Source: Thermotoga sp. SG1 (lineage in GTDB: Bacteria; Thermotogota; Thermotogae; Thermotogales; Thermotogaceae). From it: a DNA stretch of 64,000 nt. Location: assembly GCF_002865985.1 (NCBI RefSeq), contig NZ_LNDD01000002.1, positions 1 to 64,000 of the forward strand. Direction: 5' to 3'. Under the pieces are notes generated by a model, which was given only the letters and a program-made list of their open reading frames with translations, did no database searches and was not told the DNA's origin. Below, piece by piece: positions 3,976 to 40,875 of this stretch. The translations under genes and the position numbers were made by a program. Within the stretch, counting starts at the first letter, position 1. Every line of letters starts with the position of its first letter.

Positions 3976-4949
3976 CATCTGATCGGTTTGTCTTTTGTCA
4001 CCTCTTCCAGTGCTAGGAGTCTTTCCCATCTCCTGTCAACATACTCCTGAAGTTCGTCTATGATCTCTTTCGCGTCGGGTCTTGAGAGCAGTCTTCTGAA
4101 CCTTCCCTGGGCTTTCAGAAATTCCTCCACGGGTTTGAACTGTCTTGGCTTTCTTGTAACTCTGTAGACTCCCCTTTCCACTTCGTACAGAGGCCAGTAC
4201 TTTGTTTCCACAGCAAGTTTCGAGATCTCAACCGTTTTGTCGTCGTTCACCCTCCAGAACCTGACACAGGGAGAGAACACCGCAAGGAAAGAAGGTCCAT
4301 CGAAGTTCAGTGCCTTTTCCACTTTGGCGAAGAAGTCCATCGGCTCGGACAGGGCAGCAGTTGCGGCGTAGACATTCTCATGAGCTGCCACGATCTCGAC
4401 GATGTTCTTTTTCAACTGAACCTTTCCGGGAAGTTTCTTTCCAACGGGAGCCGTTGTTGTGTCGGAACCCGGTGGTGTGGAACTGGATCTCTGGTTTCCT
4501 GTGTTCATGTAACCTTCGTTGTCGTAGAGGACATAGAGCACCTTGTGGCCTCTCTCAATCTTTCCAGAAAGCGACTGCAAACCGATGTCGTACGTTCCTC
4601 CGTCTCCTCCGAACGCTATGAAGGCGTACTTTTTATCTTCTGGAATCTTTCCTTTGTTCTTAAGAGCTCTGTAGGCGGTTTCTACACCGCTCATCGTTGC
4701 TGCGACGTTTTCGAAGGCGTTGTGGATGTAGGGAACGCTCCAGGCGGTGTATGGATAGATGGTGGTGGAAACCTCCAGACAACCTGTTGCTAGTCCAACA
4801 ACGGGTTCGTACCCAAGGTGTCTTGCGATCATCATAACGAATTTGACCGTGATGGGAGCACCGCATCCAGGGCAGAGCCTGTGCCCCTGTGTGATACCTA
4901 TTTCCTTCTTGTCGAACTCCTGTGCCAGTTGTTTTATGTTAACGGGCAT
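3975..4949 (-). CDS. porB: Pyruvate:ferredoxin oxidoreductase, beta subunit
   Basis: 324 residues. It binds thiamine diphosphate and the catalytic 4Fe-4S cluster: CPGCG at 26-30, GDGGTYDIG from 115 and the Mg/TPP-binding stretch ending YMNTGNQRS. With the alpha, gamma and delta subunits it oxidises pyruvate with CoA to acetyl-CoA, CO2 and reduced ferredoxin, the main outlet of sugar fermentation in Thermotoga. Last gene of porC-D-A-B, 14 bases after porA. Confidence 0.95.
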   Translation of the reverse strand: MPVNIKQLAQEFDKKEIGITQGHRLCPGCGAPITVKFVMMIARHLGYEPVVGLATGCLEVSTTIYPYTAWSVPYIHNAFENVAATMSGVETAYRALKNKGKIPEDKKYAFIAFGGDGGTYDIGLQSLSGKIERGHKVLYVLYDNEGYMNTGNQRSSSTPPGSDTTTAPVGKKLPGKVQLKKNIVEIVAAHENVYAATAALSEPMDFFAKVEKALNFDGPSFLAVFSPCVRFWRVNDDKTVEISKLAVETKYWPLYEVERGVYRVTRKPRQFKPVEEFLKAQGRFRRLLSRPDAKEIIDELQEYVDRRWERLLALEEVTKDKPIR

Positions 4950-4963
4950 TCTTCACACCTCCT

Positions 4964-6142
4964 TCATTCTCTGAGGCCAAGATATCTCTGTTCGTCGGCG
5001 ATCAGATTTCCGTTTATGGCGTCCTCAAAGGCTTTTCTGATGTGTTCCGGTTTAATATCCCTTCCACCAAGACCGTAAACGTAGGATCCAAGACTTGGCC
5101 TTGCGGCCACTTCGTACAGGGAGGATTTAACAGCTTCATACAGGGGAGCTTCTGCTCCGAAGGAAACTGCTCTGTCAAGCACGATAACGCTCTTTCTACC
5201 GTTGAGAAGCTCCTGGAGTTGTTCCTTCGGGAACGGTCTGAACATCCATATCTTCAATGCACCAACTTTGTGCCCTTCCTCTCTGAGTTCGTCGATAACG
5301 TACTTTATCGTGCTGTTTGTGGAACCGAGGGCCACCATCACGTGTTCTGCGTCGTCTAGTTTGTACGGTTCGACGAACCAGTATCTTCTTCCAAACGTTT
5401 CTTCGAACTCTCTTGCAATCTCCGGAAAGACCTTCTTCACATTTTCCATTGCTTCTATCTGCTGTCTTTTGTGTTCAAAGTAGTAATCGTAAAGATCAAG
5501 AGGTCCCCACGTCACCGGATGTTCTGTGTCCAGGAGAGGATACATGGGTTTCAGTTCACCGACGAACTTCTTCACAAGGTCGTCGGGATAAAACTCAACG
5601 GGTTCCACCCCGTGGGAGAGGATGAATCCATCGAGGTTCACCATGACGGGAAGTCTCACATCGGGGTGTTCTGCCAGTCTCACAGCAAGGATGGTGAAGT
5701 CGTAGGCCTCTTGGTTTGTCTCTGCAAAGAGCTGTATCCAGCCTGAGTCTCTTTCTGCCATAGCATCGCTGTGATCACAATGTATGTTTATCGGACCACT
5801 CAGAGCCCTGTTTACAACGGGCATCACTATGGGAAGTCTGTAGGATGCAGCGATGTAAACTATTTCATGCATCAGGGCAAGACCGTTCGCACTGGTTGCT
5901 GTCATTGCCCTTGCGCCTGCTGCGGCAGCTCCCACAACGGCACTCATTGCACTGTGTTCGCTCTCAACAGGTATCATCTCTGTTCTGACGACGCCGTCTG
6001 CGACGAACCTAGCAAAGTATTCCACGATGGGAGTTTGTGGAGTTATGGGGTACGCCGCGACGACATCGGGCTCTATCTGTCTCATCGCATTGGCAACAGC
6101 TTCGGCACCGGTGACGGCCACTCTCTCAACGACCCTTTCCAT
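4964..6142 (-). CDS. porA: Pyruvate:ferredoxin oxidoreductase, alpha subunit
   Basis: 392 residues from the ATG at 6142; an in-frame ATG two codons earlier (6148) touches the ribosome site GAGGAGGG and is too close. The sequence has AYPITPQTPIVEY and the SEHSAMSAVVGAAAAGARAMTATSANGL region typical of POR domain I, where the conserved threonine near the TPP is found. It supplies the pyrimidine-binding half of the TPP site and the CoA region. It lies 2 bases after porD, pointing to translational coupling. Confidence 0.95.
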   Translation of the reverse strand: MERVVERVAVTGAEAVANAMRQIEPDVVAAYPITPQTPIVEYFARFVADGVVRTEMIPVESEHSAMSAVVGAAAAGARAMTATSANGLALMHEIVYIAASYRLPIVMPVVNRALSGPINIHCDHSDAMAERDSGWIQLFAETNQEAYDFTILAVRLAEHPDVRLPVMVNLDGFILSHGVEPVEFYPDDLVKKFVGELKPMYPLLDTEHPVTWGPLDLYDYYFEHKRQQIEAMENVKKVFPEIAREFEETFGRRYWFVEPYKLDDAEHVMVALGSTNSTIKYVIDELREEGHKVGALKIWMFRPFPKEQLQELLNGRKSVIVLDRAVSFGAEAPLYEAVKSSLYEVAARPSLGSYVYGLGGRDIKPEHIRKAFEDAINGNLIADEQRYLGLRE

Positions 6143-18317: not shown

Positions 18318-18336
18318 CAGAAAGTGTACTTAAAAA
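18318..18336 (+). repeat. 19-base element, copy 1 (CAGAAAGTGTACTTAAAAA)
   Basis: Identical over at least 20 bases (with the preceding C) to the copy at 29854. Its core AAGT-GT-ACTT has dyad symmetry. First of a tandem pair upstream of a 28-residue gene. Confidence 0.8.
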
Positions 18337-18395
18337 TTCAGAAGGAAACAAAACAGAGAGGTAACCAAAATGCGTTCGTGGGTTATTTGTGATGT

Positions 18396-18414
18396 CAGAA
18401 AGTGTACTTACAAA
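18396..18414 (+). repeat. 19-base element, copy 2 (CAGAAAGTGTACTTACAAA)
   Basis: One mismatch to copy 1, 78 bases downstream of it. It ends 38 bases before the start codon of the 28-residue gene, and no TATAAT-like hexamer is seen between. The position fits a core promoter or an operator. Confidence 0.78.
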
Positions 18415-18452
18415 TTTGGAGGATGAAACTGAAAAGAAAGGAGGTGAACCAG

Positions 18453-18539
18453 ATGAGTACCATCAAAGTAATTTCGGCGATCTTGACAGGTGTAGCAACG
18501 ACATTAGAAATCATCGAAGAGATTACTGAAGAGTCTTAA
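18453..18539 (+). CDS. 28-residue hydrophobic/acidic peptide
   Basis: A very short open frame with a strong ribosome site (AAAGGAGGTGA, 5 bases before ATG). The peptide begins MSTIKVISAILTG; residues 4-20 are hydrophobic or small and could form one helix, and the last eight are acidic (EEITEES). It forms a complete transcription unit: the paired 19-base element upstream and a terminator 27 bases downstream. No homologue is known to me. It could be a small toxin, a signal peptide or an accessory factor of the polymerase system that shares its upstream element. Coding status rests on the ribosome site and the unit layout. Confidence 0.6.
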   Translation: MSTIKVISAILTGVATTLEIIEEITEES

Positions 18540-19214: not shown

Positions 19215-19967
19215 ATGAGGATAAAAATTCATTTTCAAACTACGGAGGCTATAATTCCTCTGAATTACAACTACCTTCTTTCGTCGTTTATCTACAAAAA
19301 GCTGGCTTCTCAGAACGAGAACTTCGCCAAATTTCTTCATGAGAGAGGATACGGAGAAAGATTCAAATTTTTTACTTTCTCTCAACTTTTTTTGGAAAAC
19401 TCAAAGGTGAAGGATGATAAGCTAGTGATATTTCCGGGAAAGGGATGGTGGCACGTATCTTCCCCTGTCGTCGACTTTGTAAGGTATATGTTCTCCTCTC
19501 TATCTGAAAATCCTGTGATAAGAGTTGGAAAGGCAGAATTCGTGGTTCAGTCAATCACAGTTGAAGATTCTCTTCCAGTCCTTTCAGAATACAACTTCAT
19601 CATGATCTCTCCTCTTGTTGTGAGTGTTCCTGAAGAAAAAAACGGGAAACTGGTTCACAGATACCTTCACCCCGGTGAAGAAGGCTTTTACGAGGCTTTC
19701 AAGAGAAACCTGTATAAGAAGTACCGCATCTTTTATGGAAAAGACCCAGAGGGTGATGTAGAAATCATTCCAGATTGGAACTATATAAAATCCAAAGAGC
19801 GTATAACAAAAAGAATCAAGTTGAAAGATGTATTCGTCAGAGCTGTTGTCTTTCCATTTAGAGTAAGGGGTGATAGGAAACTGATAGAGATCGGTTATGA
19901 GGCAGGCTTTGGAGAAAAGAACAGTATGGGATTTGGAATGGTAGCTTTGAAAGGGGGAGAAGCATGA
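19215..19967 (+). CDS. cas6: CRISPR repeat endoribonuclease Cas6
   Basis: 250 residues from ATG 19215 (GAAGGGGGTATGAT upstream; an earlier in-frame ATG at 19179 lacks a ribosome site). Two RAMP folds: N-terminal IKIHFQTTEAIIPLNYNYLLSSFIYKKL with histidine in FLHERGYG as likely general acid/base, and the C-terminal glycine-rich loop GFGEKNSMGFGMV. It cuts the array transcript within the repeat to make crRNAs for all three effector complexes here. It overlaps the CARF gene by 4 bases. Confidence 0.92.
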   Translation: MRIKIHFQTTEAIIPLNYNYLLSSFIYKKLASQNENFAKFLHERGYGERFKFFTFSQLFLENSKVKDDKLVIFPGKGWWHVSSPVVDFVRYMFSSLSENPVIRVGKAEFVVQSITVEDSLPVLSEYNFIMISPLVVSVPEEKNGKLVHRYLHPGEEGFYEAFKRNLYKKYRIFYGKDPEGDVEIIPDWNYIKSKERITKRIKLKDVFVRAVVFPFRVRGDRKLIEIGYEAGFGEKNSMGFGMVALKGGEA

Positions 19968-21106
19968 GGGATCATGTGATTTGTACAGTGGGGGCAAGTC
20001 TTCAAAACAATATCGTTAGGGGTTTGGTCTTTGGTGAGGAAGCCAAGAGGTTTTATGAAGAAGATAGGCTTTCAGAGATATCCAGAATTTTGAGAAAACA
20101 GGATGATCCTCTGAACAACAGAAACTTTGGAGCAGAGATCAACTCTATGGCAAGCATCGTCAAACAGGGAATTGTAGATCAAAGAGAAACACTCTACCTT
20201 CTTGTTTCAGACACTACCGAAGGGGAAAAGATTGGCAAGATTCTAAAAGACTATTTCAAAGAAAACGACCATGAGTTGGACTTTAAAAATGTTCATGTGG
20301 TGAAAGTAGAAGGATTGAACGACAGTGACGAATTCACTTTCAGAAACAAAGGATTGAGAAACCTTATCAGGGAGATGGCGAAGTATGCGAGATTGAATAG
20401 AGAAAGGGTTGTCATCAATGCAACGGGAGGATACAAAGCACAGATAGCCTACGCAGTGGCTCTGGGACAGGCTCTTGGCATACCTGTTTGTTACAGATTT
20501 GATAGATTCAATCACATGGTGGAACTTCCCCCTCTTCCGATAGGCTTAGATCAAAAAATCTACAACGAAAACAAACTGATCTTTACTCTTCTCGACGCTG
20601 CCGGTGAATTAGAACTTTCAGAATTTCTAAAGGTTATTGGGTGGAAAAGCTGGGCAGATGTCCCTGAAAAGATGAAGCTGTTTCTTGATAGAGTACATAT
20701 AGACGGGAAAGACTTTGTTGCTTTGAATCCAATGGGTTTGATCTACGCAGAGAGCGTTGAATGGGACTACTCAGCCATCGATCATCCCATATTCTACTCT
20801 AACAGAGAACCTGAAGAAAAACTGGTTGGCTTTGAAATTCATGGTCAAAAGGTCGTTAAACAGGCTTACAAGATAATTGAAAAGTTGGTTGAACTTCCAT
20901 GGATAAACTCTCTGCACCTGACAGGCAGTTCTGAGAAGAGTTCTGGAAGTTCTATCAGGACACTTGTTCAGGATGGATGTTTAAAGGTAGAACTTTTTAC
21001 AGAAAAAGGAGCACTTTATATGAAAGCCTATTGTAGGTACAGGTCGGATCGTTTTTTGGAAGCTGTAAGATTCAAAGTGGAAAAGGTTCTGTCCGAGAAT
21101 ATCTAA
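19964..21106 (+). CDS. CARF-domain type III CRISPR effector (APE2256-like), possible RelE-like C-terminus
   Basis: 380 residues. The N-terminal CARF domain (1-195) has HVICTVGASLQNNI and VVINATGGYKAQIAYAVALG, the two ligand-loop motifs, and ends MVELPPLPIGLD. Residues about 200-275 look like a small helical/winged-helix middle part. The last ~90 (two helices, then short strands KVELFTEKGALYMKAYCRYRS) could be a RelE-type mRNA interferase as in CARF-RelE (Cami1) proteins, but catalytic residues cannot be confirmed by eye. It should bind cyclic oligoadenylate made by Csm1 or Cmr2. Co-translated with cas6. Confidence 0.85.
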   Translation: MRDHVICTVGASLQNNIVRGLVFGEEAKRFYEEDRLSEISRILRKQDDPLNNRNFGAEINSMASIVKQGIVDQRETLYLLVSDTTEGEKIGKILKDYFKENDHELDFKNVHVVKVEGLNDSDEFTFRNKGLRNLIREMAKYARLNRERVVINATGGYKAQIAYAVALGQALGIPVCYRFDRFNHMVELPPLPIGLDQKIYNENKLIFTLLDAAGELELSEFLKVIGWKSWADVPEKMKLFLDRVHIDGKDFVALNPMGLIYAESVEWDYSAIDHPIFYSNREPEEKLVGFEIHGQKVVKQAYKIIEKLVELPWINSLHLTGSSEKSSGSSIRTLVQDGCLKVELFTEKGALYMKAYCRYRSDRFLEAVRFKVEKVLSENI

Positions 21107-21916: not shown

Positions 21917-23299
21917 TCAGATATCTAGATCTTTTTCAAGGATAATATCCCTATCGGCGATACTAGCTTTTATCAGGGCATTGCTGAGTATTTCTTCAAG
22001 TTCTCTGAAGTTTCCAGTGAAGTTGTGTTTCTCCAGTTTTTTGATAGCTCTCATACTAATGTACCTGACATTTCCTGTATTATAGGGAGATGTGCTCAGA
22101 ACAAAACTGATTAACAATCTAAAATCCTCTTTTCTTTCATTCAGTGACGGAAGCTTTATTCTAAAGAGAAATCTTCTGTAAAGATCTGTTCTAAAGGTGC
22201 CTTTGGTAATCTCATGCTCAAGATCTTTGTTTGTTGCTGCAATAATGATGGTTGGAGCGAAGAACTGTTCTGTTCTTCCAAGTGGTCTGACTTTCAAGTT
22301 ATCAAGATAAAGAAGAAGCTTTGCCTGTGTCTCAGGTGGTAGTTCCCCTATCTCATCCAGAAAAACTACCCCGCCTGAATAGGAGAGAAATTCTCCAGGG
22401 TAGTCCTTCGAGTCGGTAAAACTTCCTTCTGCACTACCAAACAACTCTGTTTCAACGAGATTTCCGAGATTTAGAATAGATATCTTCGAATAAAAGTCAG
22501 AAAATTCCACCTTGTCAATCTTGATGTTTTCATAAATACTTCTTGCTATGAGCTCTGCAAGAAGAGTTTTCCCAGATCCAGTTGGCCCTTCTATGAGAAC
22601 AGAAGGAACAATTCGATAATTTTGCTCAAAATATTTCTCAAAATTAGAAAATTCGATTAGAGATTTCCATTTCTGATCCCCGCTCTTTTCCCATTGATTC
22701 ATTATTTTCTTTCTTTCTTTTAGAATCTCTACCAGTTTAAGTTTTTCATATATTATTCTTAACTGACGTATTATGTATCTTATGTTCTCTACTGTTTTTT
22801 CCATTGCGGGGTCCAGAAACAAGCTCACAAACTTTTTACCACGATCTTCTGCACTGTATTTCCAGTCTATGCTTTTTCTGATTTCTTTCTCTTCGATCTC
22901 ATCTTCTAGAAGATCTCTGATTATTTCCTTTACTCTTGCTTCAAATTTCCCCTTCTCTTCGTATTCTGTCATGAAGTTTTTCTTGGAGAAGATGCCAGAT
23001 ACTGGATAGTCAATAAGGTGGTCTATTAGAGAAGATGGGATGGATTTTTCTACAAAGAACAAAATGCGTTCGAAGTCTTTTTTGTAATGTTCACACACTC
23101 TGGGATCGTCTGTGATGAGTATTATCTTCTGTGATTTTTCAGGGAGTTTTTCATGAACCTCAAATCTTTCCAGTTCCGGCTTTCCCAAATCTTTCGCAAC
23201 TTTTTCTTTGAGGTTTTTGAGGATTTCGCTTACGACGTCTTTCAGATTCGTGTCTCGGAAGAAGATCACTATGTCAACTTTGGAGTTTCTTGAGGACAT
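21917..23299 (-). CDS. Sigma54-activator-like AAA+ ATPase without GAFTGA motif or DNA-binding domain
   Basis: 460 residues. Residues 1-130 resemble a degenerate receiver-like Rossmann domain (VDIVIFFRD, KIILITDD, YPVSGIFSKKNF). The AAA+ core follows: Walker A GPTGSGKT (238-245), ETELFGSAEGSFTDS (283-297), Walker B VVFLDE (311-316), Arg-finger region FRTDLYRRF (369-377) and sensor II NFTGNFRELEE. The loop that contacts sigma54 in true activators (GAFTGA) reads GSFTDS, and the protein stops right after the AAA+ lid with no Fis-type helix-turn-helix. I know of no sigma54 in Thermotoga. It is the last gene of the polymerase operon, so a role in promoter opening for that polymerase is plausible but unproven. 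Confidence 0.82.
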   Translation of the reverse strand: MSSRNSKVDIVIFFRDTNLKDVVSEILKNLKEKVAKDLGKPELERFEVHEKLPEKSQKIILITDDPRVCEHYKKDFERILFFVEKSIPSSLIDHLIDYPVSGIFSKKNFMTEYEEKGKFEARVKEIIRDLLEDEIEEKEIRKSIDWKYSAEDRGKKFVSLFLDPAMEKTVENIRYIIRQLRIIYEKLKLVEILKERKKIMNQWEKSGDQKWKSLIEFSNFEKYFEQNYRIVPSVLIEGPTGSGKTLLAELIARSIYENIKIDKVEFSDFYSKISILNLGNLVETELFGSAEGSFTDSKDYPGEFLSYSGGVVFLDEIGELPPETQAKLLLYLDNLKVRPLGRTEQFFAPTIIIAATNKDLEHEITKGTFRTDLYRRFLFRIKLPSLNERKEDFRLLISFVLSTSPYNTGNVRYISMRAIKKLEKHNFTGNFRELEEILSNALIKASIADRDIILEKDLDI

Positions 23300-23939
23300 G
23301 TTTTTTCACCTCTTTCTTTTTCCTTTCTCCCATGGTAGGATACTCTTCATCCAGCATTTTCTCTAGCTTTTCCTCCAGTTTCGAGGGACTCAAACTCTGC
23401 ACGATTTTAATGTCTTCTAAACGCTTCTCCAAAAAGTGCTCAGCCAGGGATTCTGCACTCTCTTTTTTGGGTCTTCCTTTTGCGGTGAAATAGTTCAAGG
23501 AGTATAGATTTTCTTTGGTCTTTATAACAACACCGTATTTTTTCAGATTCGTTCTTGACTTCCCACCTGAAGTGATGTTTCCCTTTATTTCTTCAATTTC
23601 CTTTCCTTCGTTGAGTTTTTCCGTGATCTCTTCCACAATTTCCCTGTACGGAACCTTTTCATAAGGTTTTGTGAAAAAACATCGATATCCTTTTTTGGTT
23701 TTTAAAATGAAAGCTGCACACTGTAAGGGTTTCTCATACCCCAACGTTTCGATGTTGTATTCTAAATCTCGATAAACAGAGGTTTCTCTTTCGTCATCCC
23801 ATGTGGTGTCCTCTGGTTCTATCTCGAGATACTCATCAGGAGTCTCGTAGACATCAGAGAGTGCGTATCTTCGTTTTTGTTTTTGTGACGTTTTTTGTTC
23901 AGTACTCCTTTCTCTTTTTTGTTTCCTGATTTCAGACAT
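23274..23939 (-). CDS. Hypothetical protein of the RNA polymerase operon
   Basis: 221 residues, highly charged. The first ~30 are basic and low complexity (KQKRERSTEQKTSQKQKRR), then an acidic stretch (DEYLEIEPEDTTWDDERE), a beta-rich middle (CAAFILKTKKGYRCFFTKP) and a helical C-terminus (LEEKLEKMLDEEY). There is no clear helix-turn-helix or zinc site and I recognise no family. It starts 3 bases after the polymerase stop and overlaps the AAA+ gene by 26 bases, so it is made with them. A specificity, clamp-like or sigma-like factor is one possibility; nothing in the sequence proves it. Confidence 0.75.
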   Translation of the reverse strand: MSEIRKQKRERSTEQKTSQKQKRRYALSDVYETPDEYLEIEPEDTTWDDERETSVYRDLEYNIETLGYEKPLQCAAFILKTKKGYRCFFTKPYEKVPYREIVEEITEKLNEGKEIEEIKGNITSGGKSRTNLKKYGVVIKTKENLYSLNYFTAKGRPKKESAESLAEHFLEKRLEDIKIVQSLSPSKLEEKLEKMLDEEYPTMGERKKKEVKKHVLKKLQS

Positions 23940-23942
23940 TTT

Positions 23943-26900
23943 TTATTCCCCCTTCAACTTGTAGGCTGAGAACATGAAGGCTCTGGGATGTTTTTCTTCG
24001 AACGAATCACCTTTCTCGACAAGTTTTACAAGATTGTGCCCGTTTTGATAACTAATGGCCGTTAAAAATCCCCTTTCTTTGAGGAGTTCCTTCATCTTTT
24101 CTTTGTTTTCGTTAGTTCCCCAAGATTTCAATCTGTTCAGGATTTTCCTCTTTCCTTTCTTCATCTCTTCAAAGAGGATTTCAAAGTAGATAAAGTTCAG
24201 GTCTAATTTTTCAAAAATTCCTTTTGAGCTACTAAACAGTTCTCTTATTCTATCTTCATCGATCTCAGTAGAAAGTTTCTTTATGAAACCTACGAAAGAC
24301 TTTGACTCTTCCAGCTTTCTGAAAATGTACGCTCTCACTACAGCCATGTTAAAAGGCTTTCCGGTATGGAAGGTTTCCATTGAAAGCTGCGTTCCTCTCT
24401 CACCTATCGTGTGTCCTGCGTAGACCCCAACGTACTTCACTTCCAGTGGTTTGAACGTTGCAGGATCAAGACCGAAGGATCTTCTGGTGACCTTTCCACC
24501 GATGGGGGAATATATCCTCACCTTCCTGGGGTTTTTTGATATTTCATCCAGGTCGCTCTCTTCTAGAAATTTCCTTTCATCTAGATCGTATCTTCCAAGA
24601 AGGGCGTTTTTCAACAAACCTGTTTCAGAGAGCCACTCGATGTCTTCTAAAGAGTACTCCAGAACACCTTCACCTTCTTCTTCCAAAATAACATCTCCCA
24701 ATATCTCCACAAGTTCTCTGGTGAAATCTCCGGCGTTTGCAACGTGGAGTTTCTTGTCCATAAGGGTTCTTCTTGCCCTTTTAGCTATGTAGTCGATGTA
24801 ATTTTCCAAACTCACACCGTTCAAGAAGTTTTCGTTCAAATGATCTATTTTCTCATTCAATTGGGTATATTGAACTTCGTTTCCACGACATTTCGTCTCC
24901 TTGATTATCTTGAAACTACCTTCGTCCTTCTCTATCTCGTAAATGCTCAGTGTGAGATTTTCTTCGGTAGCTTTTTCAAGAGCTTCTTGTAGGGCATTAA
25001 CAGCCTCATCGAATTTTCCAGATTGTATCAGACCACTGATATACTTCTGGGCTTCCTTTTTGTTTTTTGCTTTTCCAAGTCTGTAGAGTCCATAGACGAA
25101 ATCCTGGTCAACACTAATGGCAAGAGAACCGTTCTCAGGTGTGAAGGGAACGTTTTTAATGGTCATTCTGACAAGTTCTTGAGATTGTTCTATTGGGAAG
25201 TAAACTGCCATTGTGTCTCCATCGAAATCTGCGTTGAATCCTTTGCAGGCAAGTATAGGGAAACCTATTGCCAGTTCGTTCCAAAATCTGAACTTGAATG
25301 CAAGAACACTGTTTTTGTGAAGTGAGGGTTGCCTGTTGAGAAGGACATATTTCCCTTTGGCCCACTTGTTCAGCTCTTCGAGAGAAAGATCTTTTCCAGT
25401 GAATGCCTTTCCAAATTCCGCAGGAAGTAAAACGGTGTCTGGTTCGAGATACGGAGCAGGTACGATCACGCTTCTTCCTGAGTAGAACAACCTTCTTGCG
25501 ATCATTACATTTCTCACATAACCTTCTTTCTTGAAAAGGTTTATAAATTGTTTTTGGTTCTGTTTAGCTAGGGACTCCAAGAAATTGTTGAAATGTTCGT
25601 TTTCAAGAATACTGCTTTTTTCTATCCTTTCAACAATTTTTGTTTTCCCTTCTTCCACTACATAGGAGAAATTCTCTCCGGAAGAATCCTTTCCACCGAG
25701 TTTGTATATGAGAACATTCAATGCCTCGTTCAGTTTAGGTGTTGGATCATAATCTTTTGTATTGCATCTTCTGAAAACTTCCAGGGTTTTGAAAGCATTA
25801 TGCTCCAGAAGGCACCAAAATTCCATCTCACCGAACCTCTGACCACCTTTTCTTCTTCTTCCTTTGAAAGGTTGGAACGTTATAGGACTGATAGGTGCAT
25901 TTCGACCTATCACGTGTATTTTGTCACCCACGCAGTGATCGAGTCTGATGATGTACTGAAACCCGGCAAGTGCTCTTATTTCTCTGCCTTCGAATCTCAC
26001 TCTGTATCTTCCAAGCTCATCTGCACCAAGATCTCTCAACCTTTCTAGGATGTTCTTTCTTTCTTCGTCCGAGAATCTGTAATTCATAGGAAAGACGCTT
26101 TGATACAGGCCTTTTTTTATCAGAGGAGATATGGTAGTTTCATAAAGTTGTCCCAGGTTCATTCGGGAAACTACACCAAGTGGACTCAGAAGGACTTCTG
26201 CTTTTTGCCACCGACCGTCGATGAACACCTCCGGCATTTTTTCATCTGGCAAGATTTTACTCACTACTCCCTTGTTTCCATGTCTTCCCGATAATTTGTC
26301 TCCCACTTTGAGAGGTTTTATCACTTTCAAACGAAATTCGATCAGCATTTCGCTTTCTTCTTTGCTCTGAGCCTTGAAAGGATATTTGGGAGGATGAATT
26401 TTTATGGTTTCAATTACTGCATCGTAGTATCCCTCGTATCGCTTTGTCACCTTTTTGATATTTTTTCCATTTTCGTAGATCGACATTTCGACCAACGTAT
26501 CCCCTCTTCTTATCTTTGAACCTATATCTTTACACAGCCGAACTTCCGTTTTTATTTCGTTCGATTTCTTAGACGCCTCCCATGAAAAAACGATTGTGTT
26601 TCCTTTTTCTTCGATTTCCGACGGGAAAATGCCCATCAGAGTCACTTTGTAGGTTTCCTCAACTTCGGAAAGCATCTTCTTGGCGAAAGACTCACTGACC
26701 ACTATACCATCTTCGAAGTTCAATCCCTTATAGAGCATGTAAACTACAAAGGCATTTACACCTAACTTCAGACTCTTTTCGGCTTTGACGATCGGTTCTT
26801 CTGGATTCTTCAACGGCATGGCTTGTTTCAGATTTTTAGAACCCATCAGAACGCGTGCACCATCTGAGTGGAGTATGAATGGAATCTGATACGTGGCAAG

Positions 26901-27638
26901 ACTGAAGAGATCTCCTTCCTCTATCGAAAGTGTTTCAGGGTTGAAACTTGCATTTTCTGTGAGGGAAAGGAGAAGCCCAATCTTTTCCGATTCAGGCGTT
27001 TCAAAAAGATCCACTCTTCGAACGTGACTTTCATGTGGATAGCGCATGCTCTCTGGAACTTTTTCTCGTGGGTAAACCACTTTCTTTGCCAGAAAATTTC
27101 TTTCAAGATCGTTTAAGTTTTCGAGGTCCTGAAATACGAGTATCTTTACTCCGTAGGTCTTTTTTTCTTTTCTGAATACAGGGCAGAAGAGGGCTCCTTT
27201 TTTACCATAGAGCTTGTTTAAATGAGGTTCTGCTTTTTCTAGCTTCCCGGATGACAAATAGTAAAACAAAGTGGATGCAACTGCAAACAGATAGCCGGGC
27301 GCTACTTTGTGCGCATCAAGATTCATCACTCTGTTTTCTTCAAGTGTTGGTTCTTCCTCATTCTCTTCATCCTCTTCATTTGCCGCTTTGAAATCCGGTA
27401 TTATCACATAAGGAGTCACAAGTTTTTCTCCAAGAGCGATATAAACGTTCTCCTCGTTCGGAAACAAGAGTGGAAATTCGATTGCCTTATCATTAGCGGA
27501 GAATCTGACGATGCACGATGTATCGTTTTCCACTTCTTCCTGAATTTCTATTGAGAACTCTGGATTCACCCCAAACTGTTTTGAAAGGAAATTCAAAAGA
27601 TTCTTCAACACCGTTGTGGAAAACTCTGCCCCTTTCAT
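23943..27638 (-). CDS. Single-chain DNA-directed RNA polymerase: fused, trimmed beta and beta-prime cores
   Basis: 1231 residues. Beta-type blocks in order: HESHVRRVDLFETPE (202-216), LMGSKNLKQAMP (264-275), GLNFEDGIVVSE (305-316), GDKLSGRHGNKGVVSK (446-461), LSPLGVVSRMNLGQ (484-497) and GGQRFGEMEFW (598-608). Beta-prime blocks: YSGRSVIVPAP (719-729), LLNRQPSLHKN (766-776), catalytic NADFDGD (802-808, D804/D806/D808), bridge helix LHVANAGDFTRELVEIL (964-980), trigger loop TIGERGTQLSMETFHTG (1077-1093) and a C-terminal GFLTAISYQNGHN. Only ~100 residues separate the halves, so the beta-prime zinc ribbon, clamp and sigma-docking coiled coil are absent; the beta lobes are also reduced. Its ATG overlaps the CARF-HD stop. 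It should be an active, specialised polymerase, unlike the cellular two-subunit enzyme. Confidence 0.93.
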   Translation of the reverse strand: MKGAEFSTTVLKNLLNFLSKQFGVNPEFSIEIQEEVENDTSCIVRFSANDKAIEFPLLFPNEENVYIALGEKLVTPYVIIPDFKAANEEDEENEEEPTLEENRVMNLDAHKVAPGYLFAVASTLFYYLSSGKLEKAEPHLNKLYGKKGALFCPVFRKEKKTYGVKILVFQDLENLNDLERNFLAKKVVYPREKVPESMRYPHESHVRRVDLFETPESEKIGLLLSLTENASFNPETLSIEEGDLFSLATYQIPFILHSDGARVLMGSKNLKQAMPLKNPEEPIVKAEKSLKLGVNAFVVYMLYKGLNFEDGIVVSESFAKKMLSEVEETYKVTLMGIFPSEIEEKGNTIVFSWEASKKSNEIKTEVRLCKDIGSKIRRGDTLVEMSIYENGKNIKKVTKRYEGYYDAVIETIKIHPPKYPFKAQSKEESEMLIEFRLKVIKPLKVGDKLSGRHGNKGVVSKILPDEKMPEVFIDGRWQKAEVLLSPLGVVSRMNLGQLYETTISPLIKKGLYQSVFPMNYRFSDEERKNILERLRDLGADELGRYRVRFEGREIRALAGFQYIIRLDHCVGDKIHVIGRNAPISPITFQPFKGRRRKGGQRFGEMEFWCLLEHNAFKTLEVFRRCNTKDYDPTPKLNEALNVLIYKLGGKDSSGENFSYVVEEGKTKIVERIEKSSILENEHFNNFLESLAKQNQKQFINLFKKEGYVRNVMIARRLFYSGRSVIVPAPYLEPDTVLLPAEFGKAFTGKDLSLEELNKWAKGKYVLLNRQPSLHKNSVLAFKFRFWNELAIGFPILACKGFNADFDGDTMAVYFPIEQSQELVRMTIKNVPFTPENGSLAISVDQDFVYGLYRLGKAKNKKEAQKYISGLIQSGKFDEAVNALQEALEKATEENLTLSIYEIEKDEGSFKIIKETKCRGNEVQYTQLNEKIDHLNENFLNGVSLENYIDYIAKRARRTLMDKKLHVANAGDFTRELVEILGDVILEEEGEGVLEYSLEDIEWLSETGLLKNALLGRYDLDERKFLEESDLDEISKNPRKVRIYSPIGGKVTRRSFGLDPATFKPLEVKYVGVYAGHTIGERGTQLSMETFHTGKPFNMAVVRAYIFRKLEESKSFVGFIKKLSTEIDEDRIRELFSSSKGIFEKLDLNFIYFEILFEEMKKGKRKILNRLKSWGTNENKEKMKELLKERGFLTAISYQNGHNLVKLVEKGDSFEEKHPRAFMFSAYKLKGE

Positions 27639-29800
27639 TTCACAAGCACCTCCAGTTCGAAATCCGTAAGTTCAGCACTTTCCTTCTCCCTCTCTATTTC
27701 CTCTTTTATAGATTTCATTTCACTTTCGGCGTTGAATTCCGGATTTTTGAAGATCTTTATGAGAAGTTTTTTCGTTTTCTCATCGAATCTTGCAGGGAAC
27801 ACTGTGCTGACCGCTTTGTGTTTATCAAAGTGAACAAACTGCCTTGCTTTGAAAGCAATCTTGAAGAGGATTTCAGCTGTTCGAGAGGATAGTATTCTTT
27901 TTTTGTCACTTTCTAAAAGTTTGTAGAGGTAACTCTCCAATTCCTTTGAAATTTCTTCCATCTTTCTGGATCTATCTGGGCTTAACAGATCAATGTTCAA
28001 ATTGTAGATTTCTTCGATCTTATCCTGGATCGATCGAAACTCTTCCTTTTCCTTTTGATCGATCATAAGCCACTTTCTATACAGATAGTTTATTTCCTTT
28101 GAAGTCCTTTCGACTCTCATCCTCTGATAACTTTCTGTGACGGTTCGATCTGCCTGAACGTCCAGCCCATCGATGAATCTCAACCACTGAGCTGCTTTTA
28201 TGACTATTTTACGTAATTTCTCATCTTCTATCTGTTTTGCTTCATCGACAAGCGGTGATATTTTTATTTTGAAAGCCCTTGTAAGTATCTCCATTGTTTT
28301 GTTCAGAGTACTTTTCTGATAGATTGGTAAATGCTTTCTGTGATAGCGGCATACCAGTTTTATAGCGTTTACTACTTCTTCTTTTTTTTCACCAAAGATT
28401 TCTTTCAAAGATTTGGCGTTTTTGAACCCTTCGTCGATCCCCAAGACGTTGTATTCACCGCTCTCAATAAGGCTCACGGTGAGTTCGTTGTGCAGATCTC
28501 TTATGAGGGAAGGGAAACCTTCCAGAATGTACTCTCCGTCCGATGTTTTCAAGATCGGGTAGACATGACCAAGGTCGTGAACGTAGATGGCAACACCTAG
28601 AATGAAAAGGAACATATCCCTGTATGAAATCCCGTTTACATACTTACCTTCCAGATCTATTTCTTCGGATACTTTTTCAAGTCCCATCGTTCTGATGATG
28701 TGGTATGCTAGATTCATCAACCTTCTACTGTGTCTTTGAGAATGTTCAACGGTTTCAGGGATCTGATCACCTATCCACATGTACGACCAAACACGCTTTA
28801 TTCCCTCTCTTAAGTAACTTTTCAGTTCTTCAGAATCGATTATGTTTATGTACCTTTCTCCGTAGTCGAAAGGGACATCTCGTTTTTCTTTGTACAACTC
28901 CTTTATCTCGTTTAGAGGATAGTAAGAAACGGAACCATCTAGATATATGTCCTGAAGCTCCGAAGGAATATCAAGAAGGTCCATCTGCTCTGCCTGAATG
29001 AATGGAAGAATCTCATCAAGATAGGAATAATCCCAATCCATACCAAAAGGAGGTATTTCGAGTGTTTCTTGACTCCCTTCAAAGGAATAGAAAGCGTTTC
29101 TCCTGCTGTGAAAGGACATCACCGAGGTGATCAAAGTAACTATCTTGTAGGAGGCTGTTGCATTGAAAAGAACCGTTTTATCTTTCTCTCTATTTATCAG
29201 CTCTTTCAAGACTTTCCAAAGGTCAACAAAGAGAGAAGAATAACTTCCTCTATCTGCTGGGGAGAATTCTTTTTTAATTTCTTCCATACTTATGTTGATG
29301 TTTTCTTTGAATACTTCTTTCAACTTTTCAAGATGTTCATACTTTTTATTCTTATCGGGGAACGCTATCAGAACGATTTTATCGATGGCAAAGCCACTTT
29401 TGATTATTCCAACAAAAGAGCTAACTTCTGCTGGAAGCTCCTGTAATTCCAGTTTTGCTTCCCAGAGCATTTTTATTCTTTTCAGATGATTTTCCTCAGA
29501 GAAAATGGGTTTTATATCTTTCAAGGCTTTTTCCATATTTCTCTTAGTAAGTACGGAGGTGCCTATGGGACAGATGAGAGTGGCAGGGCTTTTGAGTATG
29601 TTCTTCGCCAGTTTTATAGCTTCAAAGAGAGAAAATCCAGAGAATTCTTCTTTTTCACCGTCTGTTTCTATAACTATCATATCTTTTTTTCTATAGTCTA
29701 TGGGCTTTCCAGAATAAGAAAAAGAAAATCCAATCTTGGAGGAGTATCTTATAGTGATTGTTACATCAGAAGATTTTGAAAAAACACGTGCGACTTTCAC
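27635..29800 (-). CDS. CARF-HD protein (cyclic-oligonucleotide sensor fused to HD hydrolase)
   Basis: 721 residues from GTG 29800, which has GGGGGG 7 bases upstream. A longer frame to ATG 29914 would run through the promoter region and a copy of the 19-base element and is rejected. N-terminal CARF-like domain: TLICPIGTSVLTKRN (~75-89) and VLFNATASYKIVTLI (~210-224), then LEIPPFGMDWD, mirroring the CARF gene at 19964. C-terminal HD domain: H353/H357 (HSQRHSRR), YVHDLGH (~406-412), LHNELT (~436) and CRYHRKHLP (~484-491), then a long helical tail. It may cut nucleic acid, or degrade the signal. First gene of the operon with the fused RNA polymerase. Confidence 0.85.
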   Translation of the reverse strand: MKVARVFSKSSDVTITIRYSSKIGFSFSYSGKPIDYRKKDMIVIETDGEKEEFSGFSLFEAIKLAKNILKSPATLICPIGTSVLTKRNMEKALKDIKPIFSEENHLKRIKMLWEAKLELQELPAEVSSFVGIIKSGFAIDKIVLIAFPDKNKKYEHLEKLKEVFKENINISMEEIKKEFSPADRGSYSSLFVDLWKVLKELINREKDKTVLFNATASYKIVTLITSVMSFHSRRNAFYSFEGSQETLEIPPFGMDWDYSYLDEILPFIQAEQMDLLDIPSELQDIYLDGSVSYYPLNEIKELYKEKRDVPFDYGERYINIIDSEELKSYLREGIKRVWSYMWIGDQIPETVEHSQRHSRRLMNLAYHIIRTMGLEKVSEEIDLEGKYVNGISYRDMFLFILGVAIYVHDLGHVYPILKTSDGEYILEGFPSLIRDLHNELTVSLIESGEYNVLGIDEGFKNAKSLKEIFGEKKEEVVNAIKLVCRYHRKHLPIYQKSTLNKTMEILTRAFKIKISPLVDEAKQIEDEKLRKIVIKAAQWLRFIDGLDVQADRTVTESYQRMRVERTSKEINYLYRKWLMIDQKEKEEFRSIQDKIEEIYNLNIDLLSPDRSRKMEEISKELESYLYKLLESDKKRILSSRTAEILFKIAFKARQFVHFDKHKAVSTVFPARFDEKTKKLLIKIFKNPEFNAESEMKSIKEEIEREKESAELTDFELEVLVK

Positions 29801-29831
29801 ATAGATCCCCCCATTCGTTGTACTCGTGTTT

Positions 29832-29837
29832 ATTTTA
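29832..29837 (-). promoter_or_regulatory. Candidate -10 of the CARF-HD/RNA polymerase operon
   Basis: On the minus strand TAAAAT lies about 30 bases before the GTG start. Where a -35 hexamer should be (16-17 bases upstream) the 19-base element ends instead, so the element would overlie the -35 region of this operon. Confidence 0.4.
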
Positions 29838-29853
29838 ACATGATCCTGTGTGC

Positions 29854-29872
29854 CAGAAAGTGTACTTAAAAA
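29854..29872 (+). repeat. 19-base element, copy 3 (CAGAAAGTGTACTTAAAAA)
   Basis: Exact copy of the element at 18318, in the divergent region between the RNA polymerase operon and the DUF1232 gene. Confidence 0.82.
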
Positions 29873-29926
29873 CATGGAAAAATTTTCAGATTGGCAGACT
29901 TCCAGGAAAATCATAAAACGGTTTGT

Positions 29927-29945
29927 CGGAAAGTGTACTTAAAAA
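29927..29945 (+). repeat. 19-base element, copy 4 (CGGAAAGTGTACTTAAAAA)
   Basis: One mismatch to copy 3 and 73 bases downstream of it. It ends 30 bases before the DUF1232 start codon, with only a ribosome site between, so it takes the place of a promoter. Both copies 3 and 4 are followed by CATGGAA. Confidence 0.82.
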
Positions 29946-29975
29946 CATGGAACAACACTAGAAGGAGGTGGTTCG

Positions 29976-30317
29976 ATGGACTACTTAGATAATTACAAAA
30001 GAGACAACATCTCGGAATCAGAACTGAACGCTGCGGCAAGAAAAGCGGAAAAGAAGAAGAATGTGCTCGGCAAGGCTTTTCAAAAGTTCAAAGATCTCTG
30101 GGCACTCCTCGAAGCAGTCATGAGTGGGAGAATGAAGATACCGGGAAAGACCAAGGCAATAATCATAGGAGCTATTCTGTACTTTCTCATACCTACTGAT
30201 CTCATAGCAGATTTTATACCAGCTGTAGGCTACATAGATGATATAACGGTCATTGCAATGGTCTACAACGAAGTGAAAGACCTCATAATGAAAGCTAAGA
30301 GCAAAGGGATCATCTAA
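29976..30317 (+). CDS. DUF1232 (YkvA-like) small membrane protein
   Basis: 113 residues, ATG after AGAAGGAGGTGG. The N-terminal 55 residues are charged and helical; KTKAIIIGAILYFLIPTDLIADFIP and AVGYIDDITVIAMVYNEV form the DUF1232 signature with a hydrophobic helical hairpin. Function of the family is unknown; members are seen next to toxins and in stress loci. It is divergent from the RNA polymerase operon, carries the tandem 19-base element as its only visible promoter, and has its own terminator. Confidence 0.85.
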   Translation: MDYLDNYKRDNISESELNAAARKAEKKKNVLGKAFQKFKDLWALLEAVMSGRMKIPGKTKAIIIGAILYFLIPTDLIADFIPAVGYIDDITVIAMVYNEVKDLIMKAKSKGII

Positions 30318-30318
30318 C

Positions 30319-30344
30319 GGACGCACTCTTGTGTCCTTTTTTTT
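30319..30344 (+). terminator. Terminator after the DUF1232 gene
   Basis: GGACGCA / TGTGTCC stem (one G-U pair) with a CTCT loop and eight T, directly after the stop codon. Confidence 0.85.
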
Positions 30345-30417: not shown

Positions 30418-32583
30418 TTGAGCGACACAGAGAGGGAGGAAATAGTTCTGGGTGCTCTCATTCACGATGTGGGAAAGGTTGTGAGAAGAGCGGAAAAAAG
30501 CGCAGAAAAACATCAACTGGCAGGGTATGATTTCACAAACAAAGCAAAGAAGTTTGCAAAGTTCCAAAAATACATACACTATCACCATGAAAAAGATCTT
30601 AAAGAAAAGAAGTTAGATGATGAAAAGGTTTGGTATGTGTGCTTTGCGGACAATCTGTCCAGCAGTGAAAGAATGACTGAGGGAGGCAGGTTCAACGAAC
30701 ATCGCAGGATAGAAAATCTTCTTTCAAAGATTCCTGAAAAGGAAAACGCAAGAAAGCCTACCTACTTCCCCGTTAAGTCCGCAGACAGAATAACAGAGGC
30801 TGTCACTGAAATGGAAGAAGAAGAGAAAAGTCACATTGATCTTTATGAATCGTTCGTTAAAGATGCAGAGAAGATAACCCTATCTCCAGATGATGTGAAT
30901 TTCCTTGTGTACAAGTATTTCTCCTTCATTCCTCAGGAAACCAAAGTGGAAGGAGACATGGATATTTCTCTCTACGACCATTTGAAGGTCACGGCCATGC
31001 TCGCCATTTCCCTGTACGATTACGCGAAGGAAAATAACCTAACGTTCCGAACTTACGATGAGATGAAGAACTATTTCAAAAATCCCGCTGTGAAACCCTT
31101 CCTCCTTGTGGGAGGAGACGTTTCTGGAATACAGAACTTCATCGCCAGTGTTTCTTCAAAGGGAGCTCTCAGGTCTTACAGAGGAAGGAGTTTCTTCATA
31201 GAAATCCTTCAAGAAGTTGTTGTGGATGAGATTCTTGAAAGAACGGGCTTTTACAGAACGAACGTTCACTTCATAGGCGGTGGTCACTTCTATATTGTTC
31301 TTTCCAACACAGAAAAGGTGAAGAAGGCTCTTGAAGGTATCAGAAAGGAGCTGAACGCCTGGTTTAGAAAGAAAGGGCTTTCACTCCATCTTGTGATGGA
31401 ATACACACAGTTTTCAGCGAATGATGTCAGCGACATGAAAAATATCTTCGATGACATAGTAAAGAAGGTGAACCTGAGAAAACTCAGAATGTACACAGAA
31501 GAAGACCTCGAAGAACTTTTCCCGGACGATCTTTCTTCGATTACAGAAAGGGGAAGTTTTACGTGTAAAGTGTGTGGAAACAGGGTTGAAAAGCTCTTCA
31601 CCCTAGGCGATAGTGAAGAAGAAATAGCCTGTGATTTCTGCAGAGAAATGTACGAACTCGGAAAAGATCTTCTCAAGAAAGATCACGTTTATATCGTTGA
31701 AAAGGAAAATGGAAAGTTCGAGATCTTCGACAAACACTTCGAGTTCTCTAAAAAACCAGAAAAAGGTGCTTACAAAATAAGAGACATATATCAGTTCTCA
31801 GAAAACGAAGAAAACGTCAGAAGAATCCAGGTGATAACGTATTTCGAGCACCAAGAGTTCGAGGAGATCGCAAAAGAAGCACCTGGAAAGAAGATAGCAA
31901 GCCTTCTTGTTGACGTTGACAATCTGGGAAGGATCTTTCGTGATGGTCTTAAAAGAAAAACCCTTTCAAGATACAGCACACTTTCAAGGCTCATGAGTTT
32001 CTTCTTCAAAGAAAGGGTTGAAAAAATTGTCGAGGGAAAAAACGTAATGGTGATCTATTCTGGAGGAGACGACCTCTACCTTGTTGGAGGCTGGAACGAT
32101 GTGCTCGATGTTGCTAAACAATTGAGAGAGGAGTTTTCGAAGTTTACGACGAACGACTTCATCACCTTCTCTGCAGGCTATGTTATAACAGACGAAAAAA
32201 CGAGTATGAGACTCATAAGAGAGATGTCCGAAAGGGCAGAAAGTTCTGCAAAAAGATCAGGAAAGAACAGCATCGCATTCTCGAGCAAAAACTACTATGC
32301 CGTTAGCTGGGAGATGTTCTTCAAAATGTACGAAGTTTATTCGGAGTTGAAGGAACTTGCAACGAAAGTGGACAGAAGCGTTATCAGGAAGGCTCTCAAA
32401 CTCACACAAGAGGACACCCCTCTCAACAGAGCCTTTCTTGCCTACATAGAAGCAAGAGAGAACAAAGAAGAGGACAAAAGAGTGGCCAGTCTGACAAGAG
32501 AAAAACTCGAAGAACTCGGAGAAGACAGTTTGAACGTAATTCTCCAGTTTGTAGATCTTCTTGCAAGGAAAAAGGAGGGATGA
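30418..32583 (+). CDS. csm1: Type III-A Cas10/Csm1, HD nuclease and cyclase subunit
   Basis: 721 residues, TTG start after GGGGGTGA. N-terminal HD nuclease ALIHDVGKVV (H16-D17), first palm GGDVSGIQNFI, a treble-clef zinc site CKVCGN / CDFCREM (~381-412), and the second palm with intact YSGGDDLYLVG (GGDD at about 549-552). It should cut single-stranded DNA and make cyclic oligoadenylate from ATP when the Csm complex finds target RNA. The helical C-terminal domain follows. First gene of csm1-5, spaced 3 bases from csm2. Confidence 0.95.
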   Translation: MSDTEREEIVLGALIHDVGKVVRRAEKSAEKHQLAGYDFTNKAKKFAKFQKYIHYHHEKDLKEKKLDDEKVWYVCFADNLSSSERMTEGGRFNEHRRIENLLSKIPEKENARKPTYFPVKSADRITEAVTEMEEEEKSHIDLYESFVKDAEKITLSPDDVNFLVYKYFSFIPQETKVEGDMDISLYDHLKVTAMLAISLYDYAKENNLTFRTYDEMKNYFKNPAVKPFLLVGGDVSGIQNFIASVSSKGALRSYRGRSFFIEILQEVVVDEILERTGFYRTNVHFIGGGHFYIVLSNTEKVKKALEGIRKELNAWFRKKGLSLHLVMEYTQFSANDVSDMKNIFDDIVKKVNLRKLRMYTEEDLEELFPDDLSSITERGSFTCKVCGNRVEKLFTLGDSEEEIACDFCREMYELGKDLLKKDHVYIVEKENGKFEIFDKHFEFSKKPEKGAYKIRDIYQFSENEENVRRIQVITYFEHQEFEEIAKEAPGKKIASLLVDVDNLGRIFRDGLKRKTLSRYSTLSRLMSFFFKERVEKIVEGKNVMVIYSGGDDLYLVGGWNDVLDVAKQLREEFSKFTTNDFITFSAGYVITDEKTSMRLIREMSERAESSAKRSGKNSIAFSSKNYYAVSWEMFFKMYEVYSELKELATKVDRSVIRKALKLTQEDTPLNRAFLAYIEARENKEEDKRVASLTREKLEELGEDSLNVILQFVDLLARKKEG

Positions 32584-37706: not shown

Positions 37707-39152
<1,446 letters not shown>

Positions 39153-40666
39153 GTTTCAATACTTCCTTAGAGGTATGGAAACTCTTTACCCTACTCAATG
39201 ATTATCTATTACGATCAAAGTTTCAATACTTCCTTAGAGGTATGGAAACGCGGTAATCAAATTTTGCAAGCACTCAGAGAACAGGGTTTGGGTTTCAATA
39301 CTTCCTTAGAGGTATGGAAACACAGCTGTTTTCTGTAAATTCTCCTGAATTCTTTTTTCGTTTCAATACTTCCTTAGAGGTATGGAAACTGTCCTCTTGT
39401 GTGACTTCCAGTAGCAAAGATTCCTTGTTTCAATACTTCCTTAGAGGTATGGAAACTTAATACAACTGACGGTGACGTGCAAGTGACTGGGAACGTTTCA
39501 ATACTTCCTTAGAGGTATGGAAACGTGATGGAGATATTATTCTTGTTTGTAAGCTCAAGTGTTTCAATACTTCCTTAGAGGTATGGAAACTCTAACAGGG
39601 AATATAGTACACTAAGAAAATATATAGTTTCAATACTTCCTTAGAGGTATGGAAACAAGATTATTAAACCTCCGCTTCGTTCGGTTCCAAAAGTTTCAAT
39701 ACTTCCTTAGAGGTATGGAAACTACTTTGTCTGATGAGATAGCCGATATCCTTGCGAAGTTTCAATACTTCCTTAGAGGTATGGAAACGATATCGGAAAC
39801 CGGCTTAGGATGGGCGTTTTGAAAGTGTTTCAATACTTCCTTAGAGGTATGGAAACATTTCCACCCATCCTTCACCATCTAAATAGCCCGCATCTTGTTT
39901 CAATACTTCCTTAGAGGTATGGAAACAACAGAAGCCCTATACCCTGTGATAGTGATGTAACTTGTTTCAATACTTCCTTAGAGGTATGGAAACTTGGTGG
40001 TGTAAAGATAGAAGCGCAAGCTGCTCCAAGTTTCAATACTTCCTTAGAGGTATGGAAACCAGATAAAAGAACTATCAGAAATACAAGACGCACGAGGTTT
40101 CAATACTTCCTTAGAGGTATGGAAACTCGAAGAAGGAGACATCGTCGTTTGTGTCGTCGGGGGGTTTCAATACTTCCTTAGAGGTATGGAAACTCCCTTG
40201 AGGAGTCTGTCAGTCTTGCCAGTTCGTTTAGTTTCAATACTTCCTTAGAGGTATGGAAACTAGCATTTTCCAAGATCCCTAGCATATGCTTTCCCAGTTT
40301 CAATACTTCCTTAGAGGTATGGAAACCACTATTAGAAACACCGATATCACACATTATAGAGGAATGTTTCAATACTTCCTTAGAGGTATGGAAACATATA
40401 TTCATAATCTTCGTTGTGCCAGTTGAAGTTTTGTTTCAATACTTCCTTAGAGGTATGGAAACGGAGTAGACGTACCCGTGAATAGAACTGAAACCACACG
40501 TTTCAATACTTCCTTAGAGGTATGGAAACTTGGGGCGTGGTGGGCATGGGTTAATCATCAAGTGTATGTGTTTCAATACTTCCTTAGAGGTATGGAAACT
40601 AGCATCGTTGAAGTAATCTTGCAATTTCTGGAGCTAGTTTCAATACTTCCTTAGAGGTATGGACAT
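39153..40666 (+). CRISPR. CRISPR array, 23 repeats and 22 spacers
   Basis: A 30-base repeat beginning GTTTCAATACTTCCTTAGAG and ending GTATGGAAAC. Repeat 1 is 39153-39182; the repeats I read through to 40570-40599 are identical, and the 23rd (40637-40666) ends GGACAT instead of GGAAAC. Spacers are 36-42 bases and all differ by eye. A degenerate last repeat at the right and a promoter at the left show that new spacers enter at the left and transcription runs rightward. The repeat class fits the I-B/III systems of Thermotoga, with Cas6 (19215) as processor. Confidence 0.99.
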
Positions 40667-40685
40667 TGTCGATAAGAAGGAGGGT

Positions 40686-40729: not shown

Positions 40730-40748
40730 CGGAAAATGTGCCTAAAAA
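40730..40748 (+). repeat. Degenerate fifth copy of the 19-base element
   Basis: CGGAAAATGTGCCTAAAAA differs from copy 4 (29927) by three transitions in 19 bases and is also followed by an AT-AGAAACA tail like CATGGAACA there. It is 128 bases upstream of cas8b, first gene of the I-B/III-B operon. Confidence 0.45.
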
Positions 40749-40875
40749 TATAGAAACAAAGACGAAAACGAAAAACTTCAAAGACTGGGTGGAATTGTTC
40801 GAAAACGAAAGGTTAAAACAGCAAACAATACAAACAGAGCTGGTTCATTGAAAAGAATTTACTGGGGGGATCGAG

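Follow-up and report, generated by a model that had tools for sequence, protein, structure and literature searches.

The effectors of cyclic oligoadenylate (cOA) signalling known so far either break down nucleic acids, proteins or nucleotides or serve as transcription factors on the host RNA polymerase (RNAP). Csa3 and RtcR are the described cases in which a CARF signal is tied to transcription, and the CARF7 class of PADLOC includes proteins that combine CARF and HD domains (CARF_CYTH_HD, PDLC01929). Single-chain RNAPs are represented by the fused beta-beta' enzymes of Helicobacter and Wolbachia (NCBIfam PRK09603 and PRK14844) and by YonO of prophage SP-beta, a single-chain, two-barrel, DNA-dependent RNAP that serves a private gene set (for YonO and jumbo-phage RNAPs, PMC5467207 and PMC7598289). 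Here we describe a locus within a 64,000-nucleotide stretch of the Thermotoga sp. SG1 genome (contig NZ_LNDD01000002.1, positions 1 to 64,000; the window), in which the gene for a CARF-HD protein (27635..29800, minus strand) heads an operon encoding a second, miniature, fused beta-beta' RNAP, a protein that we call p2 and an AAA+ activator. A preliminary description of the CARF-HD gene, made from the sequence, had placed it first in a polymerase operon; the nature of that polymerase, its AAA+ partner and a set of candidate promoters are added here. We put at about one in two the probability that the locus encodes a CRISPR-linked, self-contained transcription circuit, in which a cOA alarm would act through the CARF-HD protein on the dedicated RNAP and a toxin-like regulon.

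The four genes lie on the minus strand in the order CARF-HD, RNAP (23943..27638), p2 (23274..23939) and AAA+ ATPase (21917..23299). The CARF-HD and RNAP genes overlap by 4 bases (ATGA), a gap of 3 bases separates the RNAP and p2 genes, and the p2 and AAA+ genes overlap by 26 bases. Conservation was surveyed in 101 genomes of the class (Thermotogae) and by scanning 84,980 species genomes. Within the class, all 19 genomes with a CARF-HD protein also encode the RNAP, which is present in 26 of the 101 (hypergeometric 4e-15, uncorrected for phylogeny). Most of the class loci read have the RNAP gene grouped with a p2-sized gene and the AAA+ gene, often beside type I-B or type III genes. The position of the CARF-HD gene varies: it heads the operon in the window and in genus-mate G003, is the last gene in G036 and G063, adjoins the operon in G045 and G070, and in other genomes is found at a separate place. 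The operon of G081, G086 and G088 is headed instead by CARF_DUF2103, a homologue of a second CARF protein encoded in the window (19964..21106, plus strand). Across the scan, CARF-HD was confined to Thermotogota, Synergistota, one Omnitrophota genome and one further bacterium, in which the RNAP is on a different contig from CARF-HD. In 10 Synergistota loci the RNAP follows directly after CARF-HD, most of them continuing with a p2-sized gene and the AAA+ gene; named carriers of the system include Athalassotoga saccharophila NAS-01 and Fretibacterium fastidiosum. Because the link between CARF-HD and the RNAP is conserved in two phyla, it is not accidental, and the first place given to the gene in the preliminary description is borne out in the window.

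Several neighbours of these operons were recorded as well. A helicase gene of about 1030-1050 amino acids stands directly before CARF-HD in G070, G089, G091 and G092 (L099, L100, L080 and L098), and on L099, where this was checked, its product matches PADLOC C3a193, 'poss. alt. Cas3'. In the divergent gap between the RNAP and CARF-HD genes of G045 (L083, 13406-13990) there are about six tandem GAACGCCTGGGAACGCCAAACT repeats, 109-119 bases apart. On one Synergistales contig (L197 8117-8248; G102:C69:588-719) an N-terminal RNAP remnant followed by a stop lies directly behind CARF-HD, an apparent case of RNAP decay.

The CARF-HD gene of the window is a real minus-strand open reading frame (ORF) whose GTG start at 29800 is exactly the end point given in the preliminary description, and it encodes 721 amino acids. 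An alternative start, the ATG at 29914, would give a frame of 27635-29914 and 759 amino acids; a GGGGGG ribosome site precedes the GTG, which is the more probable of the two. The pairing of CARF and HD domains is supported by Pfam matches to PF09651 (residues 161-289, 35.7 bits against a cut-off of 24.8) and to PF24391, HD-CE (residues 386-591, 34.2 bits against a cut-off of 27), and by a full-length hidden Markov model match to CARF_CYTH_HD (1082 bits, residues 27-759). The motifs PIGTS, NATASYK, EIPPFGMDWD and HDLGH, which had been quoted earlier, are all present. The ancestry that the description proposed to be common to this CARF domain and that of the second CARF protein, which PADLOC also places in CARF7, is supported by BLASTP (E 9e-7 over about 240 residues) and by matches of PF09651 to both. 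Alignment showed that the CYTH signature (an N-terminal ExExK, and RxR) is missing from the proteins of the window and G003, whereas longer Thermotogota homologues do carry it (IERE-K, RIRL); Synergistota homologues start straight at the CARF domain and have no CYTH domain. Since the signature is missing here, we use the name CARF-HD rather than CARF-CYTH-HD. The locus further differs from the described class in that no PADLOC model matched the RNAP or p2 of the window.

The HD metal ligands H391, H395, H446, D447, H450, H475, H525 and D582 are invariant whether 15 or 19 sequences are aligned, so that the HD metal site is intact, as had been proposed. R472 is likewise invariant, and most of the invariant residues fall in the HD half. 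In the CARF half, Ser120 and Lys257 are nearly invariant and correspond, by profile alignment, to the Ser/Lys pair of SSO1393-type CARF domains. An AlphaFold model of the protein has a predicted local distance difference test (pLDDT) score of 80, with the HD domain mostly above 90 and residues 1-76 mostly poor. The nearest folds to model residues ~109-343 are Cami1 and the ring nucleases Sis0811 and SSO1393 (Z 13-15), or Z 12-15 when Sso2081 is included. These cA4 effectors and ring nucleases share the CARF fold and the conserved Ser/Lys pair; they differ in carrying RelE or no effector where the present protein has an HD phosphohydrolase, and in lacking its link to an RNAP. For the HD half of the model, structural comparison places exopolyphosphatase nearest (Z 12.8), together with cyclic-nucleotide phosphodiesterases (Z ~10.8), a likeness that for a helical bundle is no more than suggestive. 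A type III-A cas10 gene with HDVGK and an intact cyclase GGDD (30418..32583, plus strand) is a candidate source of cOA, and since it sits in the same locus the CARF-HD protein is likely to bind cOA.

Two other roles for this protein need to be weighed against these data. It might act independently, as an HD nuclease or nucleotide hydrolase switched on by cOA, and share the operon for co-expression only, with the RNAP transcribing immunity genes when a phage shuts down the host RNAP. The invariant HD residues and the resemblance of the HD half to phosphodiesterases and exopolyphosphatase fit such an effector. Lone CARF-HD genes would then be expected more often than they occur: none of the 101 genomes has CARF-HD without the RNAP, although one Pyramidobacter outside them does, and the placement of the gene immediately 5' of the RNAP in the 10 Synergistota loci speaks in the same direction, so that we judge an independent effector unlikely, at about one chance in four. 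An off-switch is somewhat less probable still. In that case the protein would mainly degrade cOA, through a ring-nuclease activity of the CARF domain and/or through the HD site, and the RNAP would be regulated otherwise. The near-invariant Ser120 and Lys257 and the presence of Sis0811, Sso2081 and cyclic-nucleotide phosphodiesterases among the nearest folds agree with degradation, but many CARF effectors also retain the Ser/Lys pair, a pure off-switch would not have to accompany an RNAP, and no second nucleotide sensor was found in the operon.

The miniature RNAP is a single-chain beta-beta' enzyme of 1231 amino acids, identified by Pfam and by alignment both with the host subunits and among 31 such RNAPs. 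Its Rpb2_6 and Rpb1_2 domains (residues 287-596 and 760-818) matched PF00562 and PF00623 above cut-off. The catalytic residues are intact: D804/D806/D808 lie in NADFDGD, K448/K456 are the two beta lysines, the GDKxxGRHGNKG motif is present, and the trigger-loop base (GExGTQ) reads GERGTQ. The DFDGD triad and both lysines are invariant across the 31 RNAPs, as are the trigger-loop residues in aligned columns. The protein aligned with residues 561-1230 of host rpoB and 615-1346 of host rpoC, with 29% identity to the latter over 399 columns. Residues 1-614 of host rpoC were left unaligned, and the miniature RNAP has no counterpart of the sigma-binding beta' clamp helices; because of this unaligned part we regard it as a two-barrel RNAP core and not as an rpoC orthologue. 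Normal rpoB and rpoC genes are also present in the same genome. In this it differs from the fused Helicobacter/Wolbachia type, with which it shares the joining of beta and beta' in a single chain; those proteins have about 2850 amino acids, and the miniature RNAP scored 184-188 bits against their cut-offs of 4632-5372. It resembles YonO as a single-chain two-barrel RNAP, yet is far closer to cellular beta/beta' than YonO and the jumbo-phage RNAPs are, and lies in a chromosomal CRISPR operon. A search of viral contigs gave no confirmed match for CARF-HD or the RNAP; among the matches listed, phage and plasmid records gave partial matches only, to ordinary or jumbo-phage RNAPs, and no SP-beta record was among the phage matches listed (20 of 46).

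The AAA+ protein combines a pseudoreceiver with an ATPase of the sigma-54-activator type. PF00158 is found in 18 of 18 proteins, and the GAFTGA-type loop has the consensus GAFTDA and reads GSFTDS in the window. The chain stops at the lid domain, with no C-terminal DNA-binding helix-turn-helix (HTH), and no match to sigma-54 (PF04552) was found in this genome or in G003. A structure model of the N-terminus has a receiver fold (Z 8-10 to receiver domains) that lacks a conserved phospho-Asp; a CARF fold had been considered for this region, and no CARF domain was among the matches listed. Since the N-terminus is a receiver fold of this kind, the CARF-HD protein is the sole nucleotide-sensor candidate of the operon. 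The top PADLOC and NCBIfam match of the ATPase is the RtcR-type AAA+ protein. Unlike in Csa3 and RtcR, sensor and activator are here separate proteins, and the predicted target is a dedicated RNAP and not the host RNAP with sigma-54. The remaining protein, p2, has a basic N-terminus, an acidic linker and a domain of ~130 amino acids without a recognised fold, and the window protein had no Pfam match; we consider it a candidate specificity factor. We do not claim a sigma-54 homology for p2: hhalign gave a probability of 5-20% (E 0.001-0.008) to two sigma-54 profiles, in the HTH wing only, and the link was gone when Synergistota p2 was used.

A 23-bp element with the joint form AAAGTGTNNNTR-N6..8-TGRA is clustered around the RNAP loci of several families. 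The sequence RGAAARTGTACTTAMAAA has four mismatch-free copies in 1.84 Mb, all within this locus; one pair precedes the cas6 operon and the other DUF1232-cas10. The latter pair (29855..29879 and 29928..29952, the second reading GGAAAGTGTACTTAAAAACATGGA; plus strand) occupies the divergent intergenic region and precedes the gene of a small membrane-type DUF1232 protein (29976..30317, plus strand; terminator at 30319-30336). Of the former pair, the copy at 18319..18341 (plus strand) is directly behind a terminator-like hairpin and T-run, and that at 18397..18419 (plus strand) precedes an ORF for a 28-amino-acid hydrophobic peptide, MSTIKVISAILTGVATTLEIIEEITEES (18453..18539, plus strand), which has a strong Shine-Dalgarno sequence and is followed by a terminator-like hairpin. 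G003 has the element at the same two orthologous places, and in both genomes the elements are directly behind terminator-like T-runs. A diverged copy (40731..40753, plus strand) lies upstream of the I-B cas operon, as does a CRISPR array of 23 repeats (GTTTCAATACTTCCTTAGAGGTATGGAAAC, 39151-40685).

Related repeats were recovered in G063, G089 and G091 by searching intergenic DNA de novo for recurrent 18-mers. The middle triplet of the element is constant within several genomes (GAT, GTG, GCA or AAA; ACN in the genus of the window), and most elements are located tens of bases upstream of a strong ribosome site. The pattern gave 27 matches in the loci read, against one for a backward control, and 27 matches near RNAPs genome-wide, where 2.1 were expected; a looser pattern (18-mer, one mismatch) was too unspecific over the 101 genomes. 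The paired copies are spaced 71-78 bases apart, much like repeat and spacer, and we had considered a degenerate CRISPR repeat; this idea was set aside because the element precedes ribosome sites and also occurs as single copies.

Peptides of 30-50 amino acids with one hydrophobic stretch are encoded behind the element in G002, G010, G026, G063, G089 and G091. G063, G089/G091 and G049 carry DarT toxin genes behind it, and in G091 a DarG homologue adjoins DarT. That DarT is found behind the element in three families speaks for a regulon of toxin-like genes, though not an exclusive one. Other elements precede cas6 (G063, L102:10864), a cas8b-type gene (G049, L089:7202) or a helicase gene; those before the two cas operons would also suit an RNAP that transcribes immunity genes beside an independent effector. 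In G003 (L105, 16773-17021) the element is followed by a gene for an 83-amino-acid protein that by eye looks like a RelE/DUF4258-type small toxin; it had no Pfam or PADLOC match.

The element is also kept in G002 and G010, two genomes without the RNAP, and a few further RNAP-less relatives have a single copy. G002 is a genus-mate in which L142 (7255-12532) contains three copies of the element together with a DUF1232 gene and two short hydrophobic ORFs. Its cas6 gene and a cas10 fragment (81% identical) stand one unrelated gene apart, and the locus therefore looks like a deletion derivative. In the I-B locus of G010 the element precedes a 35-amino-acid hydrophobic ORF and a cas gene (L143, 8263 and 6917). 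These genomes raise the alternative that the element serves another regulator of CRISPR loci or the host RNAP, while the miniature RNAP makes other RNA, for example precursors of CRISPR RNA or RNA-templated copies. The apparent deletion in G002, the constancy of the middle triplet within several RNAP genomes and the AAA+ partner, which favours the opening of double-stranded promoters, argue against it, and we consider it improbable, to much the same degree as the off-switch.

In the dedicated circuit that we favour, Cas10 would recognise invader RNA and make cOA, probably cA4, which the CARF-HD protein would bind. The steps that follow ligand binding we infer. The HD site, as a metal-dependent phosphohydrolase, may switch the polymerase module on and/or reset it. 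Ordinary sigma factors would not be usable by the miniature RNAP in the ordinary way; p2 might act as its promoter-specificity factor, the pseudoreceiver-AAA+ ATPase would power promoter opening, and initiation at the element would lead to transcription of genes for short membrane-active peptides and DarT-type toxins and of some cas genes. The outcome would be an expression-based abortive or dormancy response beside the cOA-activated nucleases. Host RNAP is commonly disabled by phages. The fuller proposal, that the alarm leads to toxins and membrane peptides independently of the host RNAP, through a private RNAP with its own AAA+ activator, non-sigma specificity factor and promoters, is more tentative, and we would put it just short of an even chance. 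The timed on/off control suggested in the preliminary description is plausible under this circuit, although what would be controlled is dedicated and not ordinary transcription.

A number of observations weigh against this circuit. The main objection is the element in the RNAP-less G002 and G010, the case of G010 being unexplained. Seven of the 26 RNAP genomes have no CARF-HD protein; conversely, CARF-HD occurs without the RNAP in one Omnitrophota genome as well as in the Pyramidobacter, and the RNAP is reduced to a remnant on the Synergistales contig. The element in this form was not found in Petrotogaceae-like genomes, in family f3 or in Synergistota, some copies stand before cas genes or a helicase and not before toxins, and the p-value of the enrichment is not reliable at face value because the pattern was refined partly on the counted loci. 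The sigma-54 signal of p2 in hhalign is weak, and the ligand, the HD reaction, the use of the element as promoter of the miniature RNAP and the toxicity of the regulon enter the proposal as predictions.

The CARF-HD protein class has already been described, and the new part is its operon with an RNAP; the mechanism is held with moderate confidence. No CRISPR-linked RNAP module as such turned up in PADLOC, NCBIfam or PHROGs, which gave partial or general RNAP matches only, and the searchable literature contained no report of one, although an earlier mention in surveys of CARF classification, accessory type III genes or CRISPR linkage is possible. If the circuit is real, a CRISPR module that carries an RNA polymerase of its own would add a new output to immune signalling, and the polymerase would be a new minimal RNAP of cellular type that works without the sigma-binding clamp. 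It would also provide a test case for the action of an AAA+ activator without sigma-54, and would mean immunity through dedicated transcription that does not rely on the host RNAP.

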